From an uncultured Treponema sp. (GTDB lineage: Bacteria > Spirochaetota > Spirochaetia > Treponematales > Treponemataceae), in assembly GCF_945873775.1 (NCBI RefSeq), contig NZ_CAMCEC010000002.1:124001-188000 (forward strand): a stretch of DNA of 64,000 bases. Direction: 5' to 3'. The notes beneath the pieces were generated by a model. The model did not search any database. It saw only the letters and a program-made list of their open reading frames with translations, and was not told the DNA's origin. The position numbers and the translations under genes were made by a program. Positions 29,379-52,917 of the stretch are shown piece after piece; the first letter of the stretch is position 1; every line of letters begins with the position of its first letter.

Positions 29379-29449
29379 TGTCATTATCGGGCTTGACCCG
29401 ATAATCCATGTACAAATCGCAGATTCCCCGATCAAGTCGGGGAATGACA
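29379..29449. repeat. dispersed TGTCATT double-hairpin repeat, copy 1
   Basis: Palindromic unit opening TGTCATTATCGGG and closing CGGGGAATGACA, made of two hairpins. Related copies are at 51243-51317 and 54663-54739 and a half copy at 54509-54537. It begins on the last base region of ssb and may also act as its terminator. Confidence 0.7.
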
Positions 29450-44509: not shown

Positions 44510-44537
44510 ATTATATCTATAAAACTATTCCATGTAA
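44510..44537 (-). promoter_or_regulatory. promoter of the moxR-bat operon
   Basis: TTTACA (44532-44537) and TATAAT (44510-44515) on the minus strand, 16-bp spacer, located in the end of the sugar-binding protein gene. The leader to the moxR ATG would be about 25 nt and contains the Shine-Dalgarno sequence. Confidence 0.55.
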
Positions 44538-45562
44538 ACTTCACCATAAGTGTGAAAACCGGAATCAATTATAACATCGTCTATATTGTTTTTTGTAACC
44601 AGCACAGGCTTTAAAAGAATCGCAGGAATTTCTGCAAAATTATTATCGATTGATTTTAAATTAGAAAGCGACTGGATTTTTTCTCCGCGTGCAACTCTCA
44701 CTGAAATTTCAGCGGCAGTTCTGGCAAGATCCACAATCGGTTTGTAAACAGTAAAGTCCTGAAGCCCGCGCACAATATTTTGGCAAGCGGCAATGTCAGC
44801 ATCTTGTCCGCAAATAGGAATGTGCTTATCCGGATAGTAAGTCTGCAAAACAGAAATCACGCTGTCCGCAACCGCATCGTTTCCGCAGATAATCGCGCCT
44901 GGAATTTTTCCGCTTGTAATAACGTCAAGCATTTTCTGACGGGACAAATCATAGTTCCAGTCCTGAGTGTAAAAAATTTCATTTATAATCGGCAAGGAAG
45001 TTTTTATAGTTCCGCTAAGTCCGCGCAAAAGCATTTCCATGTTGTAGTCTTCCTGCGGTCCCAAAATACAAAGCCAGTTACGCAAAGGCGCAATACGCTG
45101 AAGCTCTTTTCCCATAATCACGCCGACTTGCCCAGAATCAATCGTAATGTACAAATCAATTTTTGTGTTCAAAATCAGGCGGTCGTAGGCAATGACAGGA
45201 ATATTTTTTGCACGGATTTTTTCAATTTCATCTTTAAGAGAATCTGCGACTTTTGCAAGAACAACAACCACATCCACATTTTTATCCAGAAGATACATGA
45301 GCTGTTTTTTCTGAACTTCAACATTGTTGCCCGCATTCTGAACAATAACATCCGCATCAAAATCTCTTGCGCGCGCCATAAAAACATCCAAGTCCCTTTG
45401 CCACCGTTCAATTGCAAGAGTGTCTATAGAAAATCCGATTGTAGTTTTCTTTTCATCCACAAAAGAATTTTGCTTCTGCACAGAAAAAGTTCTCTTGCTC
45501 TTTGCGCATCCGGCAAAAATAAATGCAAGAAAAACTGCCAAAACTAAAAAAGTTTTTTTCAT
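44525..45562 (-). CDS. periplasmic sugar-binding lipoprotein, XylF/ChvE-like
   Basis: Lipoprotein of 345 aa (signal ending IFAGCA). The mature part is a Peripla_BP_4 fold of the XylF/ChvE kind: TIGFSIDTLAIERWQRD, VVVVLAKVADSL, AYDRLILN and VISVLQTYYPDKHIPICGQDAD. Pentoses or related sugars are likely ligands. It is the last gene of an overlapping operon with a two-component system; no permease or ATPase genes follow, so it may serve sensing or share a transporter elsewhere. Confidence 0.85.
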   Translation of the reverse strand: MKKTFLVLAVFLAFIFAGCAKSKRTFSVQKQNSFVDEKKTTIGFSIDTLAIERWQRDLDVFMARARDFDADVIVQNAGNNVEVQKKQLMYLLDKNVDVVVVLAKVADSLKDEIEKIRAKNIPVIAYDRLILNTKIDLYITIDSGQVGVIMGKELQRIAPLRNWLCILGPQEDYNMEMLLRGLSGTIKTSLPIINEIFYTQDWNYDLSRQKMLDVITSGKIPGAIICGNDAVADSVISVLQTYYPDKHIPICGQDADIAACQNIVRGLQDFTVYKPIVDLARTAAEISVRVARGEKIQSLSNLKSIDNNFAEIPAILLKPVLVTKNNIDDVIIDSGFHTYGEVYME

Positions 45563-47127
45563 AAGGACTCCGAATTTCTATTTGTGTTTCTAAAATCAGT
45601 TGGCGAAATTCCAAACTTGTTCTTAAAAATTCTGCTGAAATAATTCTGATCGTTGTAGCCAATTTCCGCAGAAATTTCCTTTATAGAAAGCTCGGTTTCA
45701 CAAAGCATGAGCCGACCTTTTTCCAGCCGCCTGTCCGTCACATAGTTTATAAAAGTTTCGCCTGTTTCTTCTTTAAAAAGTTTGCTCAAATAAAAAGAAC
45801 TTACACCTGCAAAAGAAGCCGCATCATCAAGCGAAAAATTTTCCGCGATGTGTTCCTGAATATATCCGAAGACTTTTTTTACAAGCGGATTTTCTTTTTC
45901 ATCTTTTGAACTGCAAATAAAAGCCGCGCACTCGGAAAGCCTGTTCTTAAAAAAATTCAAAAGCTCCGTCTTGGAGTCAATCTTGCTCAAGTCAGAAAAA
46001 ATATTTTCAAACGCAGCATTTTTCCATGAAGAACTTGCGGACTTTGCAGAATTTTTTGCTTCAATCAAAATTTCAAAAATGTTTCCTTTTATTTTATCCA
46101 GCGGAAAATTTTGCTCGTAAAGCTCCCCAATATAATGCTCTGCCAAAAACTGAACTCCGGCAGCATCACCAAGCTTTAAACGGTTCAAAATGCGCTCGCA
46201 CAACTCCTGAATTTTTTCATCGCCGCTAGAAGAATTCAAAAGCTCATCAGAAAATAAAAGTCCTCCGTCTGGAGAAGTTCTGTTCAAAGCCTGAATCGCA
46301 TCTTTGCAGCGGTCAGAAACTTCTTCAAGCTCGCCGCAAACGTTGCTTATTCCAACCCGAAGCTTCTGCCCGATTTCCAAAGTCAAAAGTGTAAATATTT
46401 CCTTGACCGCAGAATGAAAATCATCTTGCAAACTTTCCGCAGAATTTTCCATAGAAACAAAAACAGCGATTCGGTTTGTCATAAACAAGCCGGCCAAGCA
46501 CTTGAACTTTTGCGAAACAATTTTTCTGACTTTAGAGCAAACCTCGTATATATTTTTTTCAGAATCTGGAACTTCTATGCAGGCAAAAAAGAAATCATCA
46601 ACCTTCATGTTGAAATAGTCAAGATAACTTTGAAAATCCTCGTTCTTCGCCTTGCTGAAAATGCACGAGTAAATAAAATCGCTTTCAATCATCGGGTAGA
46701 CAATATCCAGTTTTTTCTGAAGCTCCAAATTTCCAGAAGTTGTTCCGTTGCGCTCGTCAACAAGATTCATGGCATTGCGAACAGTTTGAATTACAATGTT
46801 GCGGTTTACGGGCTTTGTAATATATTTGTACGCTCCAATGTTCATGGCTTCCTGCGCATACTGAAATTTATCAAACGCGCTCAAGACAATAATCACTGCG
46901 GAAGGCTTAAGACTTTTTATGCAGCTGATTGCGTCAAGTCCGCTCATTCCCGGCATATTTATGTCCATAAAAATTATGTCGATTTTTTCCCGGCTCACAA
47001 TAGAAACAGCATCGCTTCCAGACAATGCAGAAAATAAATTCACCTGCCCTTCAAAATTCTTTTTGATTATAAACTGAAGCGAGTCAATCACAATCTGCTC
47101 GTCATCACAAGTTAAAATGTTATACAT
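45559..47127 (-). CDS. YesN-type response regulator with AraC DNA-binding domain
   Basis: Protein of 522 aa. Receiver domain at residues 1-120 with the phospho-Asp in IIFMDINMPGMSG; a long linker; an AraC/XylS double HTH at the C-terminus (FSLDDAASFAGVSSFYLSKLF ... SIKEISAEIGYNDQNYFSR). It would turn on sugar-use genes after phosphorylation by the kinase encoded just upstream. It overlaps both neighbours by 4-8 bp. Confidence 0.93.
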   Translation of the reverse strand: MYNILTCDDEQIVIDSLQFIIKKNFEGQVNLFSALSGSDAVSIVSREKIDIIFMDINMPGMSGLDAISCIKSLKPSAVIIVLSAFDKFQYAQEAMNIGAYKYITKPVNRNIVIQTVRNAMNLVDERNGTTSGNLELQKKLDIVYPMIESDFIYSCIFSKAKNEDFQSYLDYFNMKVDDFFFACIEVPDSEKNIYEVCSKVRKIVSQKFKCLAGLFMTNRIAVFVSMENSAESLQDDFHSAVKEIFTLLTLEIGQKLRVGISNVCGELEEVSDRCKDAIQALNRTSPDGGLLFSDELLNSSSGDEKIQELCERILNRLKLGDAAGVQFLAEHYIGELYEQNFPLDKIKGNIFEILIEAKNSAKSASSSWKNAAFENIFSDLSKIDSKTELLNFFKNRLSECAAFICSSKDEKENPLVKKVFGYIQEHIAENFSLDDAASFAGVSSFYLSKLFKEETGETFINYVTDRRLEKGRLMLCETELSIKEISAEIGYNDQNYFSRIFKNKFGISPTDFRNTNRNSESL

Positions 47128-48610
47128 TTGGAATCCTGATTAAAAATTTCATTTCTGAATCATCTTCAGAAAAAATATCAAAAACATCGTCACGGTGAAA
47201 ATAAATTCTAAGCCGCGAAAAAACATTTATAAGCCCAATACCCGTATGATCTCCGCCTTTGCCTTCCAAAGAATTTTCCTTTGCAGAAAGAGATTTCATT
47301 CCGCCGCTTCTTGCAGCTTTTAAAATTTCTTCACGCACAGCCGAATCAAATTTGCTGCCGTTGTCGCCCACAAGAATTTCAACAAATCCGTCAGCTTCCT
47401 TTACAGAAAGAAAAACTTTACCCATGGAATTTTGCAAGCCATGCTGAATACAGTTTTCAACTAGCGGCTGCAAAGTCATTGCAGGAAGCCTCTGAGAAAA
47501 TTTATGCTGCTCGGGAATATTTTTTACAAACTCAAGCCTTTTTCCAAAACGAACTTTCATAATGTAAACAAAACTGTCCACAAGTCCAAGCTCATCATCA
47601 ATACTAGCATCTTCTTTTTGCGCAATGTTGTATCTAAAAAAATCCGAAGTCTGCTCAATAAAAAAACAAGTTTTGTCAGCGCCTTCCATCATGGCAAGCT
47701 GCGCCCCGGTGTTCAATGTGTTAAACAAAAAATGCGGATTTATCTGGCTCTGAAACGCCTTGAGCTGGGCATCCGCATAAAGAGCCTGCATTTCCATCTG
47801 GCGTTCCCTAAGCTCGTTTTCAGTTCTAGCCTTTTCCCAAATTTTGTCTATGTATTCTCTTATGCTGATTATCATTCTGTCAAAAGCGCGGCAGATGTTT
47901 CCAATTTCATCATGCGACTTTTTGTTAAAAAGCGGAACATCAAAATCTTGCTGAGCCACACGAAGCGCAACCGAAGAAATTTCCGCAAGAGGCCGAGTGA
48001 TTTTTCCTATGAGAAGATTCAGCAAGGCAAGAATAAAAACAAAGAAAAGCGCAAAGAAAACTGCATAAACTTTAAAAAGCAAATTTATATTGTTTCTGTC
48101 CGTAGCGTAAAATTCGGCGTTATTCTGCATATAGAGAATGTTCAGCTTTTGAATTTCCTCCAAAAGAAATCTGTAGCATTCAAGGCTCTGCAAATAAAAA
48201 TTTCCGCTTGTGCTGTTTGCCCTTCGTTCCGCAACTGCTTTAGAACTATAATATAGAAAAGACTGCGCAAGCTGATTCACAACATATTCTTTTTGGCGCA
48301 CTTCATTTGTAGACGGAGAATCCTGCATCGCATCGCAAAGATCTTCAACTCTGGCTAAACTTGCATAATAAGCGTCAATGCTTTCAAATGTTCTATATTC
48401 AATGTAAAGTTCAAGTGAATTTTCAAGACGAGCCAAATCATTTGCAAACACATTCAGCTCGGAATTTGACTTGTAGGATTCGCCCACGGATTTTAAAACG
48501 TAATGTTCCATAAGCATTGTAAGCGCAAGGCTCGCACTCATTATAAGAAAGGCGGCAACTATGCTTGCCATGATTTTCCATCGAAGGCTTTTGTTTTCTG
48601 CAAGCTTCAT
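47120..48610 (-). CDS. YesM/LytS-type sensor histidine kinase
   Basis: Protein of 496 aa with transmembrane helices near residues 13-34 and 173-197 bounding an extracytoplasmic helical sensor of about 135 residues, then HAMP, a His_kinase domain with the phospho-His in INPHFLFNTLN, and an ATPase domain with PLVENCIQHG and GIGLINVFSRL. It pairs with the YesN-type regulator. A binding protein encoded upstream probably presents the sugar signal to it. Confidence 0.93.
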   Translation of the reverse strand: MKLAENKSLRWKIMASIVAAFLIMSASLALTMLMEHYVLKSVGESYKSNSELNVFANDLARLENSLELYIEYRTFESIDAYYASLARVEDLCDAMQDSPSTNEVRQKEYVVNQLAQSFLYYSSKAVAERRANSTSGNFYLQSLECYRFLLEEIQKLNILYMQNNAEFYATDRNNINLLFKVYAVFFALFFVFILALLNLLIGKITRPLAEISSVALRVAQQDFDVPLFNKKSHDEIGNICRAFDRMIISIREYIDKIWEKARTENELRERQMEMQALYADAQLKAFQSQINPHFLFNTLNTGAQLAMMEGADKTCFFIEQTSDFFRYNIAQKEDASIDDELGLVDSFVYIMKVRFGKRLEFVKNIPEQHKFSQRLPAMTLQPLVENCIQHGLQNSMGKVFLSVKEADGFVEILVGDNGSKFDSAVREEILKAARSGGMKSLSAKENSLEGKGGDHTGIGLINVFSRLRIYFHRDDVFDIFSEDDSEMKFLIRIPNV

Positions 48611-49587
48611 TTTTTTTCTGCCCTCCTTACTTGAAGGTCAGCTGTAATGTAGCTGTTCGCATAGCCTTTGTTTCTGTATTCAAAAAGTTCCGCCATTGCC
48701 GTTCTTCCGATTTTGTTAAGATTGAACGAAACAAGCTTAGAAAGAATTCCTTTTTCAAGATACATTGTTACAGTTTCATTTTCACCATAGCCTAAAATTT
48801 TTATGCGTCCAGAAGCAGGAGAGGCTGCAACAAGCTGAAGAGCCATAATCGTGTCTTCTTCTGTAAGACAGACAACGGCGCAGCAGTCAGTTTTTCCATG
48901 CAGAAGAACTTCTTCCACACTTTTTTTGTTTTCCTTGAGCGACTTGTCAAACACTTCAAAATTTGAAATTCCCCTAGCTTTGTAATAATCCATTAGGCTG
49001 TTTAAAAGATTGCTGTGGTTCGGGCTGCCTGAAATTCCGCTTATAACGATATATGCTTTTCCACTTGGCTCAAAAAGCTCTTCGGATTCAATGCCGATTC
49101 TGCGCCCAAGATTTGAATAGTTGCTTCCGATAAAAGAAATCTGCGGATTTTCTGCAAGATAATGTCCGATTGTTATAACAGGAATTTCTGTGCCGTCAAT
49201 GCGGCTTACTGATTCAAACGGAAGCGATGAAGGGCTTACATAGGCAATGATTCCATCCGCATTTACAAACGAACCGTAGTCAATTAAAGACTGAAGCGAA
49301 ATATTTTCCGCAAGGGAATCCGGGGACTTTAGTTCCACCAGCGCGCTATAGTCATGGCTCATGCTTTTTGCGCCTTCAAAAATCTGGTTAAGGAAAACGG
49401 AACTGTCAGCCTGCCCCACAACAAGAATATGGTAGTTTCTGTCTTCGCCTTCAAATTCCGCGCCATGAGTAGAAATTCCAGAGACAATGCGCATAAGAAA
49501 AAAAATTCCCGCCGCAAAAAGAACAGCAAGCGGAACCGCCGCCTTTAGCACAAAACCATTTTTATCTTTCACTGGATTTTTCCCCAT
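48607..49587 (-). CDS. membrane-tethered periplasmic sugar-binding sensor, XylFII-like
   Basis: Protein of 326 aa: short cytoplasmic N-terminus, one transmembrane anchor (about residues 13-34) with no cleavage site or lipobox, and a Peripla_BP_4-type binding domain (HILVVGQADSSVFLNQIFEGAKSM, IPVITIGHYLAENPQISFIGSN). In Clostridium the anchored XylFII binding protein works with LytS and YesN to sense xylose; gene order here is the same, so a sugar-sensing role is likely. Upstream ATGACA-17-TATTAT (49600-49628) is a good promoter. The first codons are inside the 47-bp repeat duplicated at 51111. Confidence 0.8.
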   Translation of the reverse strand: MGKNPVKDKNGFVLKAAVPLAVLFAAGIFFLMRIVSGISTHGAEFEGEDRNYHILVVGQADSSVFLNQIFEGAKSMSHDYSALVELKSPDSLAENISLQSLIDYGSFVNADGIIAYVSPSSLPFESVSRIDGTEIPVITIGHYLAENPQISFIGSNYSNLGRRIGIESEELFEPSGKAYIVISGISGSPNHSNLLNSLMDYYKARGISNFEVFDKSLKENKKSVEEVLLHGKTDCCAVVCLTEEDTIMALQLVAASPASGRIKILGYGENETVTMYLEKGILSKLVSFNLNKIGRTAMAELFEYRNKGYANSYITADLQVRRAEKK

Positions 49588-49608
49588 AAACGCAATAAAA
49601 TAATAACA
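49562..49608. repeat. 47-bp direct repeat flanking hipBA, copy 1
   Basis: Identical to 51111-51157 except for one base. This copy spans the first nine codons and the -10 region of the XylFII-like gene, so it is the functional original; the other copy is a fragment beyond hipA. Confidence 0.9.
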
Positions 49609-49653
49609 GTTTTATATCTGAATGTCATTATCCGCTTTTCTTTGCCAGAAATC

Positions 49654-49716
49654 TTCCCGAACGGTAACAAAAGATTTAAATTACCTTTAAAATACATAGA
49701 TTTTACCGTTCGGGAA
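49654..49716. promoter_or_regulatory. paired operators at the hipBA promoter
   Basis: TTCCCGAACGGTAA (49654-49667) and its exact complement TTACCGTTCGGGAA (49703-49716) are 35 bp apart. Each contains CCGNNCGG. The right copy ends just before the TATAAT at 49720-49725, so HipB bound at both sites would block the promoter, as is known for hip operons. Confidence 0.65.
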
Positions 49717-49732
49717 TGCTATAATTGCCGTT

Positions 49733-49954
49733 ATGATAATAAACTCTATCAGCGATATTTCAGAAGCTGTAAAAAAACGCAGAAAATCCCTAGGAATTAC
49801 CCAGTCTGAATGCGCCGTAATGTGCAATGTTGGAAACCGTTTTTTTTCCGAGCTTGAAAACGGCAAAGAAACTCTTCACATCGGAAAAGTAATAAATTGC
49901 CTTCAAATTCTTGGAATAAACATTTCTTTGACAAACCGCGAGGATAACGAATGA
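49733..49954 (+). CDS. hipB: HipB-like antitoxin, XRE HTH protein
   Basis: Protein of 73 aa, a single XRE HTH (KKRRKSLGITQSECAVMCNVGNRF... with FFSELENGK). It is coupled to hipA by a 4-bp overlap and has operator-like palindromes upstream. TATAAT ends 7 nt before the ATG and no Shine-Dalgarno sequence is seen, so the transcript may be leaderless. It should repress the operon and neutralise HipA. Confidence 0.88.
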   Translation: MIINSISDISEAVKKRRKSLGITQSECAVMCNVGNRFFSELENGKETLHIGKVINCLQILGINISLTNREDNE

Positions 49955-51105
49955 AGCTGAATGTTTATTTTGGAGAAAAAAAATGCGGTGAATTGTTCAC
50001 TACGGAAAACAGAGGAATTGCATTCTGTTATATAGAAGAATATCTTTCATCTCCAGATTCAAAGGCTATTTCACTTTCCCTTCCGCTTAAAAAAGGAGAA
50101 TTTTCGCAGAAAGAATGCCTTCCTTTTTTTTCAGGACTGCTTCCAGAAGAATTTACAAGGAAAAGAGTTGCCGATTATCTCCATATTTCAGAACTCAGCG
50201 ACATGAAACTTCTTGCGGCTTTAGGTCAGGAATGCGCGGGATTTATAACAATTGCAGATGATGATTTTAATCCAAAGAATCTTAAAACAGAATATGAATT
50301 AAACAGTTCAAATTACGAAAAGATTTCAGATAAACAATTGGAAGATTTTGTTTTAAACATTCCTCAAAGACCATTTCTAAAAGCTGATGACAAGCTTAGA
50401 CTTTCTCTTGCTGGCGCACAGGAAAAACTTTCGTTGGCATTTTTTGAAAACCAGTGGTATTTGCCTTTAAACGGCGCGCCTTCAACCCATATTTTAAAGC
50501 CAACACGAGAAGGAAGCCTTTCCACGCTAGCGCAAAATGAATATGACTGTATGCAGCTTGCAAAAAAATGCGGCTTAAATGCGCCGGAATCAAGACTCGA
50601 AAAAATCGCAGAAAAAGATGTTTTTATAATTCAGCGATATGACCGCATTATAAAAAACGGAAAAATTACAAGGCTTCATCAGGAAGATATGTGCCAAGCT
50701 CTTGGAATTATGCCGGAAAACAAATATCAGTCTGACGGCGGACCTGGAATCAAAGAGATTTATGAATTGCTGAAAGTCTATTCCGTTGTGCCGATTATTG
50801 ATTTGCGTTTTTTTATAACTGAAATTCTTTTTAACTACCTTATTGGAAACTGCGATGCCCATGCAAAAAACTATTCAATTCTTTATGACCAAAAAGGAAA
50901 TGCAAGGCTCTCTCCAATTTACGATATTGTTTCTACAAAAGCCTTTCCGTCTTTAACAAAAAAAATGTCAATGAAAATCGGCACGCATTATGACTTGGAC
51001 AAAATCAACAAAGACGATTTTATTTTACTAGCACAGCAACTAAATATAAATAAGAAAATTATTTTTGAAACTCTTGAATCCTTGAATGAAAAAATGCATT
51101 CATAG
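49951..51105 (+). CDS. hipA: HipA-family Ser/Thr kinase toxin
   Basis: HipA of 384 aa. The N-terminal HipA_N subdomain (KLNVYFGEKKCGEL ... FSGLLPEE) is followed by the kinase-like C-terminal domain with LAGAQEKLSL, the catalytic NCDAHAKN and the metal-binding DIVST. HipA toxins phosphorylate targets such as glutamyl-tRNA synthetase and cause growth arrest. All expected active-site residues seem present, so it is probably functional. The hipBA pair sits between 47-bp direct repeats. Confidence 0.92.
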   Translation: MKLNVYFGEKKCGELFTTENRGIAFCYIEEYLSSPDSKAISLSLPLKKGEFSQKECLPFFSGLLPEEFTRKRVADYLHISELSDMKLLAALGQECAGFITIADDDFNPKNLKTEYELNSSNYEKISDKQLEDFVLNIPQRPFLKADDKLRLSLAGAQEKLSLAFFENQWYLPLNGAPSTHILKPTREGSLSTLAQNEYDCMQLAKKCGLNAPESRLEKIAEKDVFIIQRYDRIIKNGKITRLHQEDMCQALGIMPENKYQSDGGPGIKEIYELLKVYSVVPIIDLRFFITEILFNYLIGNCDAHAKNYSILYDQKGNARLSPIYDIVSTKAFPSLTKKMSMKIGTHYDLDKINKDDFILLAQQLNINKKIIFETLESLNEKMHS

Positions 51106-51110
51106 ACATC

Positions 51111-51157
51111 TTATCTTTCACTTGATTTTTCCCCATAAACGCAATAAAATAATAACA
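51111..51157. repeat. 47-bp direct repeat flanking hipBA, copy 2
   Basis: Partner of 49562-49608 (46 of 47 identical, direct orientation). It holds a truncated 5' end of the XylFII-like gene that leads into unrelated sequence, showing that one copy arose by duplication. Confidence 0.9.
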
Positions 51158-51242
51158 TAGATTGAACAAATATTCGATACAGAAAAAACAAGACATATTT
51201 AACAAAAAAATAAATATGCGGTAAGAAAAAGAAAGCGGCATT

Positions 51243-51317
51243 TGTCATTATCCTGCCTGACAGGATAATCTGTTGAAATTTTATAATAGATTCCCATGTC
51301 ATAGCATGGGAATGACA
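51243..51317. repeat. dispersed TGTCATT double-hairpin repeat, copy 2
   Basis: Opens TGTCATTATCCTG, closes ATGGGAATGACA; two hairpins with different stem sequences from copy 1 but the same frame. The rest of 51158-51389 is AT-rich without a gene. Confidence 0.65.
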
Positions 51318-51389
51318 GTAAAATGACTTCTTTTATCAAAACTTGATATTTGACCTAATAAAGAATTTACCACTAACTGGAGGATTTTT

Positions 51390-52917
51390 ATGAATACAAA
51401 GAAAATTGCTCTTGCATTATTTCCGCTGCTTCTTGCATTTGCTTCATGCATGAATATTGACGGCTCTAACGGCAAAGAAGGAGCAATCCGTGTTACCTTG
51501 CCAGAAAGCGGTTCGCGCGGAACTTATACACTTTCAAAAGATAATCCTTTATATGAAGTAAGCCTTATGCAGGGCGACAAAACACTTAAAACCCTGTCAT
51601 CGGAATCCACCGGGGGGGGGCGATTTTGTATTTGACGAGCTAGAACCTGGAACATACAAAATAGTTGTTACGGCAAGACAGCAGGACGGAACATTCCTTG
51701 CCCGCAACAGCGCAGAAGTAGAAGTTACAGCCGGCGAAACCCAAAACTGCCCGATTACACTTATTCTAGCAGGCAATAAAGGAAAAGTATTCAACTCGGA
51801 TTATTATGTGCTTACAGACTCCAGCGGATACACAGATTTTGTAAATTCCGTAGATTCAACAACATCTATATCATCAACACAAGCTAGGCTTGGGGCAGAA
51901 GATATAAACAGAACGCAGTTCACTGTAGATAAAAGCTATGGATCCTCAAATTGTACTTTTAATATATTTACACAAGAACAAGCAGCTGCAAAAGCCGGAA
52001 TCGAAATAAATGGCGATAATGTTAAGCCTATAACTGACTACATTTACTATGATGCTATAAATGATTCCCTTTGGCTCGGAGCATATTCTTCAAGCGGATT
52101 TTATTTTATAAACAAAGCAAACAAAATAACCACAGCAAATTATTCAAATCCCTGTACACTTTCAGGACTTTCAATTTATCCGAATGCACAATACACGGCT
52201 TTTGCTGCAAGTGGAACAGAGCTTTACATTGCATATACAAATAACGGAACTTCATATCTTCAGCGCGCCAAAATTGAAGGAGAAAACGATTCCTTTACAA
52301 TAACAGCAATAGGAAATCCGCAGTCCACACAAGACATGGGCGTAGACGGCACAATAACAGACATTGTTATCCATTACGATGACTACGTTTATGCGCTGGT
52401 TTCAGACAGGGAAAAACTCAACGGCTCTGCAATAAATGATGGCGACACCGTAAAAAGCCGCGGAGCAATTTTAAAGATTTCAGGCACAGATTCAGGATTT
52501 GAAGTAGAAGACATTTTGGGCTGGACAAATTCCGCAAGAGCAATCAAGTCAAAAAAACTGAATGACGAAAACAATCCATACAACGGAGTAAGCGAGCAGA
52601 TAGATTCAATAAACGCATATATTCCTGCACTTTCAGAAAGCTCAAAGAAATTTTATGGCGCAGAACGTTTTGTTGCAATAAAACCAAAAGAACTTGCAAT
52701 TGCGGACTGCGGCGCAAACATAATACTTCCAGACTACAAAAACAAAAAGAACGGAAATATGTTCCAGCACGACAGAGTTGTTACAGTAAATCTTTATGAC
52801 TTTGCAATAAGCAATGTTACAGAACTAAACAACCTAGACTTCAAAAGCCTTTCTATAAGCGGAGTCATTTCATATATAACTGACTTTACTCCATCTTCTT
52901 CTTCAGATGAGGAATAA
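51390..52917 (+). CDS. phase-variable lipoprotein 1, frame interrupted (OFF)
   Basis: Lipoprotein gene with signal LLLAFASC at the N-terminus and GGAGG before the ATG. The frame from 51390 stops at 51635 because of a run of 9 G at 51612-51620. With 8 G it continues through FVFDELEPGTYKI and on to the stop at 52917, giving about 508 aa. The downstream part is beta-rich with repeated sequence like a propeller (DYIYYDAINDSLWLGAYSSSG, GTITDIVIHYDDYVYAL). The protein would be surface-exposed. Its N-terminal layout is shared with lipoprotein 2 at 54828, so they are paralogues. Confidence 0.85.
51612..51620 (+). repeat. poly-G tract, 9 G (lipoprotein 1)
   Basis: Run of nine G at codon 75. The frame upstream and the frame downstream join only when the number of G is 8 or 11, so the present state is OFF. 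Confidence 0.9.

Follow-up and report, generated by a model that had tools for sequence, protein, structure and literature searches.

A hipBA module between two copies of a sensor-operon start in Treponema: probable insertion with target duplication

Background

How chromosomal toxin-antitoxin pairs move between genomes without a carrier element is an open question. It is raised in concrete form by a 64,000-nucleotide window of an uncultured Treponema sp. (the whole stretch of DNA analysed here), where the start of a sensor operon occurs twice, once on each side of an intact neighbouring hipBA pair. Insertion with a long target duplication is known from restriction-modification genes of H. pylori (Nobusato et al. 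2000, in PMC1643837), and insertions of this kind are described as leaving long, variable target duplications (PMC3874152 and PMC3031569, citing Furuta et al. 2010), reported in H. pylori to be of the order of 100 bp. PMC1643837, PMC3874152 and PMC3031569 ascribe long target duplication to restriction-modification systems. The open-access papers searched contained no such case for a toxin-antitoxin pair, a silence which weighs little as evidence.

Results

The hipBA module and its flanking repeat

The pair shows the features of a type II toxin-antitoxin system, namely toxin domains in HipA (HipA_C PF07804 at 8e-53 and Couple_hipA PF13657 at 1e-22, Pfam), an upstream, overlapping gene for an HTH antitoxin, and palindromic operators (Table 1). 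HipB matches HTH_3, and its match to couple_hipB lies below the cutoff of that model, while HipA aligns with the structures of E. coli HipA at an E-value of 1e-50, kinase motifs included. The module is probably maintained as an ordinary HipA-kinase addiction module. A plasmid or phage origin was rejected on the grounds that the best plasmid and phage matches remain below 60% identity; moreover, none of the viral contigs encoded a close relative.

Table 1. Coordinates of the hipBA locus and the adjoining sensor operon, in positions of the window
Feature	Position	Strand	Remarks
XylF-like sugar-binding protein	44525..45562	-	sensor operon
AraC-type response regulator	45559..47127	-	sensor operon
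LytS-type histidine kinase	47120..48610	-	sensor operon
Periplasmic-binding sensor gene (PF13407)	48607..49587	-	insertion target
R copy A	49562..49608	-	first 26 nt of the sensor ORF and 21 nt upstream with extended -10 (TGTTATTAT)
U2, 21 bp beyond R copy A	49609..49629	-	contains -35-like ATGACA; beyond copy B in G107
Paired 14-nt inverted repeats TTCCCGAACGGTAA / TTACCGTTCGGGAA	49654..49716		presumed HipB operators, left edge of the module
hipB antitoxin (HTH)	49733..49954	+	between the R copies
hipA kinase, predicted toxin	49951..51105	+	4-nt overlap with hipB
R copy B	51111..51157	-	duplicated fragment, 6 nt past the hipA stop
U1, 171 bp beyond R copy B	51158..51328	-	in G107 beyond copy A, upstream of the sensor
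REP/BIME-like two-hairpin repeat TGTCATT...AATGACA, 75 bp	51243..51317		inside U1

The original prediction, that the same 47 bp with one mismatch stands on both sides of hipBA, was borne out: the two copies of this direct repeat, R, are identical at 46 of 47 positions, start 1549 nucleotides apart and enclose hipB, hipA and no other gene. It had further been proposed that one copy is the real 5' end and -10 region of the sensor operon and the other a fragment, which agrees with copy A, containing the beginning of the sensor ORF and an extended -10 (TG-T-TATTAT), and with copy B, a fragment behind hipA. The genome holds only these two copies when up to 3 mismatches are allowed. A chance origin of R was rejected, as only 0.35% of size-matched random flank pairs contain a direct repeat scoring at least 20.

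The best sigma-70-like promoter of the sensor gene, ATGACA-17-TATTAT with TG before the -10, is split by the repeat boundary, the -10 and its TG lying inside R and the -35 hexamer outside it, in U2. Loss of hipBA through recombination between the R copies would therefore be less clean than had been supposed. The sensor coding sequence and the extended -10 would be spared, as the claim of an intact operon requires, but the -35 region ATGACA would be exchanged for U1, which is the sequence found upstream of the sensor in G107.

Relatives and the search for an empty site

Two further genomes, G168 (near-complete, two contigs) and G107 (the MAG contig JAUNWH010000011.1), carry hipA at 95-96% identity adjoining the same sensor operon, whose sensor is 99-100% identical. 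R is doubled in these two and in the present genome (G000), which represent three species, and is absent from the rest of 200 congeneric genomes; a search of GTDB contigs, viral contigs and the 200 congeners returned nothing outside the three species. Related genomes with hipBA at this place and without the second copy, which would have spoken against the duplication, were looked for and did not turn up, G168 and G107 each having both copies. The search for empty-site strains was unsuccessful at this locus, no sensor operon with a single R and no hipBA being present among the 200 congeners. The nearest operons devoid of hipBA have 49-66% sensor identity, different upstream genes and no R.

An independent insertion with its empty site

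An unrelated hipBA insertion was found in another species, G014, where an AraC-family gene stands on one side and an esterase gene on the other, and the module is bounded by two copies of the 25-bp end of the AraC gene. In G024 these two genes lie next to each other and form the matching empty site, with one 25-bp copy; the left flanks of the two genomes align at 80% over 923 bp and the right flanks at 83% over 1287 bp, both alignments crossing the single copy. This pair is direct evidence of hipBA insertion with target duplication. The repeat in G014 and R have no common sequence, and their lengths are 25 and 47 bp.

Across the genus, homology between hipBA modules extends no further than the distal operator on one side and the hipA stop on the other, and the modules stand in differing contexts. 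At about 12 other hipBA loci of the genus no long flanking repeat rose above shuffle level, so target duplication is either not universal or often lost. Repeats scoring at least 20 thus occur at 2 of about 14 distinct insertions, compared with the random rate given above, a probability near 0.001 by our own binomial estimate. No clean empty site was obtained for the locus in G137 (DUF72), the relatives of G137 and G075 being too divergent or rearranged. At the G075 locus (flavoprotein) the neighbours are rearranged in relatives, and neither a duplication nor a clean empty site was seen.

A 93-bp flank repeat in G157 (L030, about 550-643 and 2848-2941) was rejected as a target duplication, as it repeats the operator region of hipB. 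The second copy lies about 0.9 kb behind hipA, beside a Phd- and RelE-like pair, and is possibly a remnant of another hipBA.

Exchanged flanks in G107

From sensor to lipoprotein gene, the order in G000 and G168 is sensor-R-U2-hipBA-R-U1-lipoprotein, whereas in G107 it is sensor-R-U1-hipBA-R-U2-lipoprotein; the exchanged segments are conserved at 97-98% (U1, 171 bp) and 95% (U2, 21 bp) identity. The exchanged state is known from one MAG contig, and U2 is only 21 bp long. The break coincides precisely with the outer edge of R, the sensor or hipA side of each copy being unchanged, so R has acted as a crossover point. The junction between hipA and copy B is common to all three genomes. The alignment, in which G107 keeps CATTTTT beside both R copies, suggests an original duplication of about 54 bp, a few bases longer than R. 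Furthermore, the two R copies of a genome agree at one dinucleotide that distinguishes the lineages (CG in G000 and G168, GT in G107), which suggests exchange or conversion between the R copies within each lineage.

On the far side, both ends of the exchange bear ends of the 75-bp REP-like repeat, which forms two hairpins (z -4.7) and belongs to a family with 34, 13 and 36 matches in the three R-bearing genomes. The exchanged junctions do not lie exactly inside the REP element, and the two orders have different sequences between the lipoprotein gene and the adjoining U1 or U2. A second REP/BIME-like two-hairpin repeat occurs in the window at 29379-29449, the family being dispersed in tens of genomic copies.

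The lipoprotein gene beside hipBA (51390-52917) contains a poly-G tract at 51612, with G9 and a frame broken after 81 aa in this genome, and G8 and an open frame in G168 and G107 (528 and 533 aa); the difference resembles phase variation, or may be a sequencing slip. The remainder of the gene (51808-52917) shares 48-53% identity between near-identical genomes whose neighbouring genes share 95-100%, and judging from these values it is a hypervariable allele.

Discussion

The reading in which we have fair, though far from full, confidence is that hipBA was inserted upstream of the sensor operon with duplication of its target, and that R later became a recombination junction. The module would have entered just upstream of the xylose-type sensor operon as a minimal unit, from the operators to the hipA stop, without a transposase, duplicating about 47-54 bp of target with the extended -10, the start codon and the first codons of the sensor. 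Copy A, on the sensor side, would still serve the operon, and copy B would be a leftover behind hipA. By analogy with G014, we infer that R was made in the same manner as the 25-bp duplication. The two loci share what is expected of insertion with long target duplication: a direct repeat of the target that varies in length and sequence, and no transposase or terminal inverted repeats. The latter features, together with the missing short fixed duplication, led to the rejection of an IS or composite transposon, and the repeats, being copied from host genes, argue against an integron cassette.

The rearrangement-prone character of the region, with its REP-like repeats, hypervariable lipoprotein gene and exchanged upstream segments, would suit a different history, in which the sensor 5' end was duplicated locally by tandem or illegitimate copying, perhaps with the REP elements, and hipBA lies between the copies by chance. 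This is unlikely: copy B starts right at the module edge, the same geometry recurs with an empty site in G014 and G024, and no genome has a doubled R without hipBA. An even less probable account, to which we give little credence, makes R the attL and attR sites of an integration event, carried out by a trans-acting tyrosine recombinase or left over from a decayed integrative element. Repeats at gene ends that restore the gene do resemble the att sites of phages and islands. However, no recombinase or integrase ORF lies between the R copies, the two duplicated targets are unrelated in sequence, unequal in length and devoid of a common att core, and most other hipBA loci have no flanking repeat at all; a tyrosine-recombinase integrative element was rejected on these grounds. 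Thus, of the original prediction that the module was inserted at the operon start, target duplication is upheld by the minimal module, the unrelated contexts and the G014/G024 pair, while site-specific integration went unsupported because of the missing recombinase and common core.

Whereas these alternatives concern the arrival of hipBA, the order in G107 poses a separate problem. The simplest route, as we infer it, starts with recombination between the R copies, which would release an R-U2-hipBA circle from a chromosome then reading sensor-R-U1. Had this circle inserted again where U1 ends on the far side, among the REP-like repeats, the G107 order would be the outcome. The exchanged flanks thus make excision of hipBA through R plausible. 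There is nevertheless a substantial chance, somewhat short of even, that the G107 order reflects two independent hipBA insertions, recombination with DNA from a different strain, or an assembly error, any of which is compatible with insertion by target duplication. G107 is a metagenome-assembled genome, the REP repeats are multicopy, and the differing sequences next to the lipoprotein gene point the same way. Usual sequencing reads are long relative to the 47-bp R and the 75-bp REP repeat, which speaks against these alternatives, as does the hipA-to-copy-B junction common to all three genomes. U1 also has 11 more shared bases past the REP repeat in both orders, and the break is therefore not at the repeat edge.

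The insertion in G014, with its empty site in G024, shows that toxin-antitoxin pairs can arrive in a genome through duplication of the target sequence, a way of moving that has until now been reported chiefly for restriction-modification genes. A broader conjecture, which we advance tentatively and consider rather unlikely as a whole, is that chromosomal hipBA is a transposase-free mobile unit that would insert at gene ends with long target duplication, exit through recombination between the copies and swap the sequence upstream of a neighbouring promoter on re-entry. If this were true, a hopping toxin-antitoxin pair would rewire a sugar-sensing operon. The G014/G024 pair and the R locus offer concrete insertions in which duplication length, empty site and excision product are directly testable, and they connect the mobility of hipBA with the mechanism put forward for restriction-modification genes.

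Among known systems, E. coli hipBA (PDB 3tpd, 2wiu and others) shares the HipA kinase fold family, the upstream HTH antitoxin and the palindromic operators, but the present HipA is shorter (384 aa), its context is a spirochaete chromosome, and its operators read TTCCCG(A/T)(A/T)CGG(G/T)AA. Integrative islands and prophages with gene-end att sites are alike in the repeat at a gene end and the restored gene; unlike them, the hipBA insert is 1.5 kb long, with no integrase and no common core. The pattern fits insertion with long target duplication rather than phage- or IS-like insertion, and the restriction-modification insertions of H. pylori, as described in the cited papers, are similar in being two-gene selfish units without a transposase, flanked by target-derived direct repeats of variable length, with an empty site in a relative and linked rearrangements. 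The Treponema insertions differ in that their cargo is a type II toxin-antitoxin pair, their duplications are shorter (25 and 47 bp, against the order of 100 bp), and upstream segments are exchanged at the repeat.
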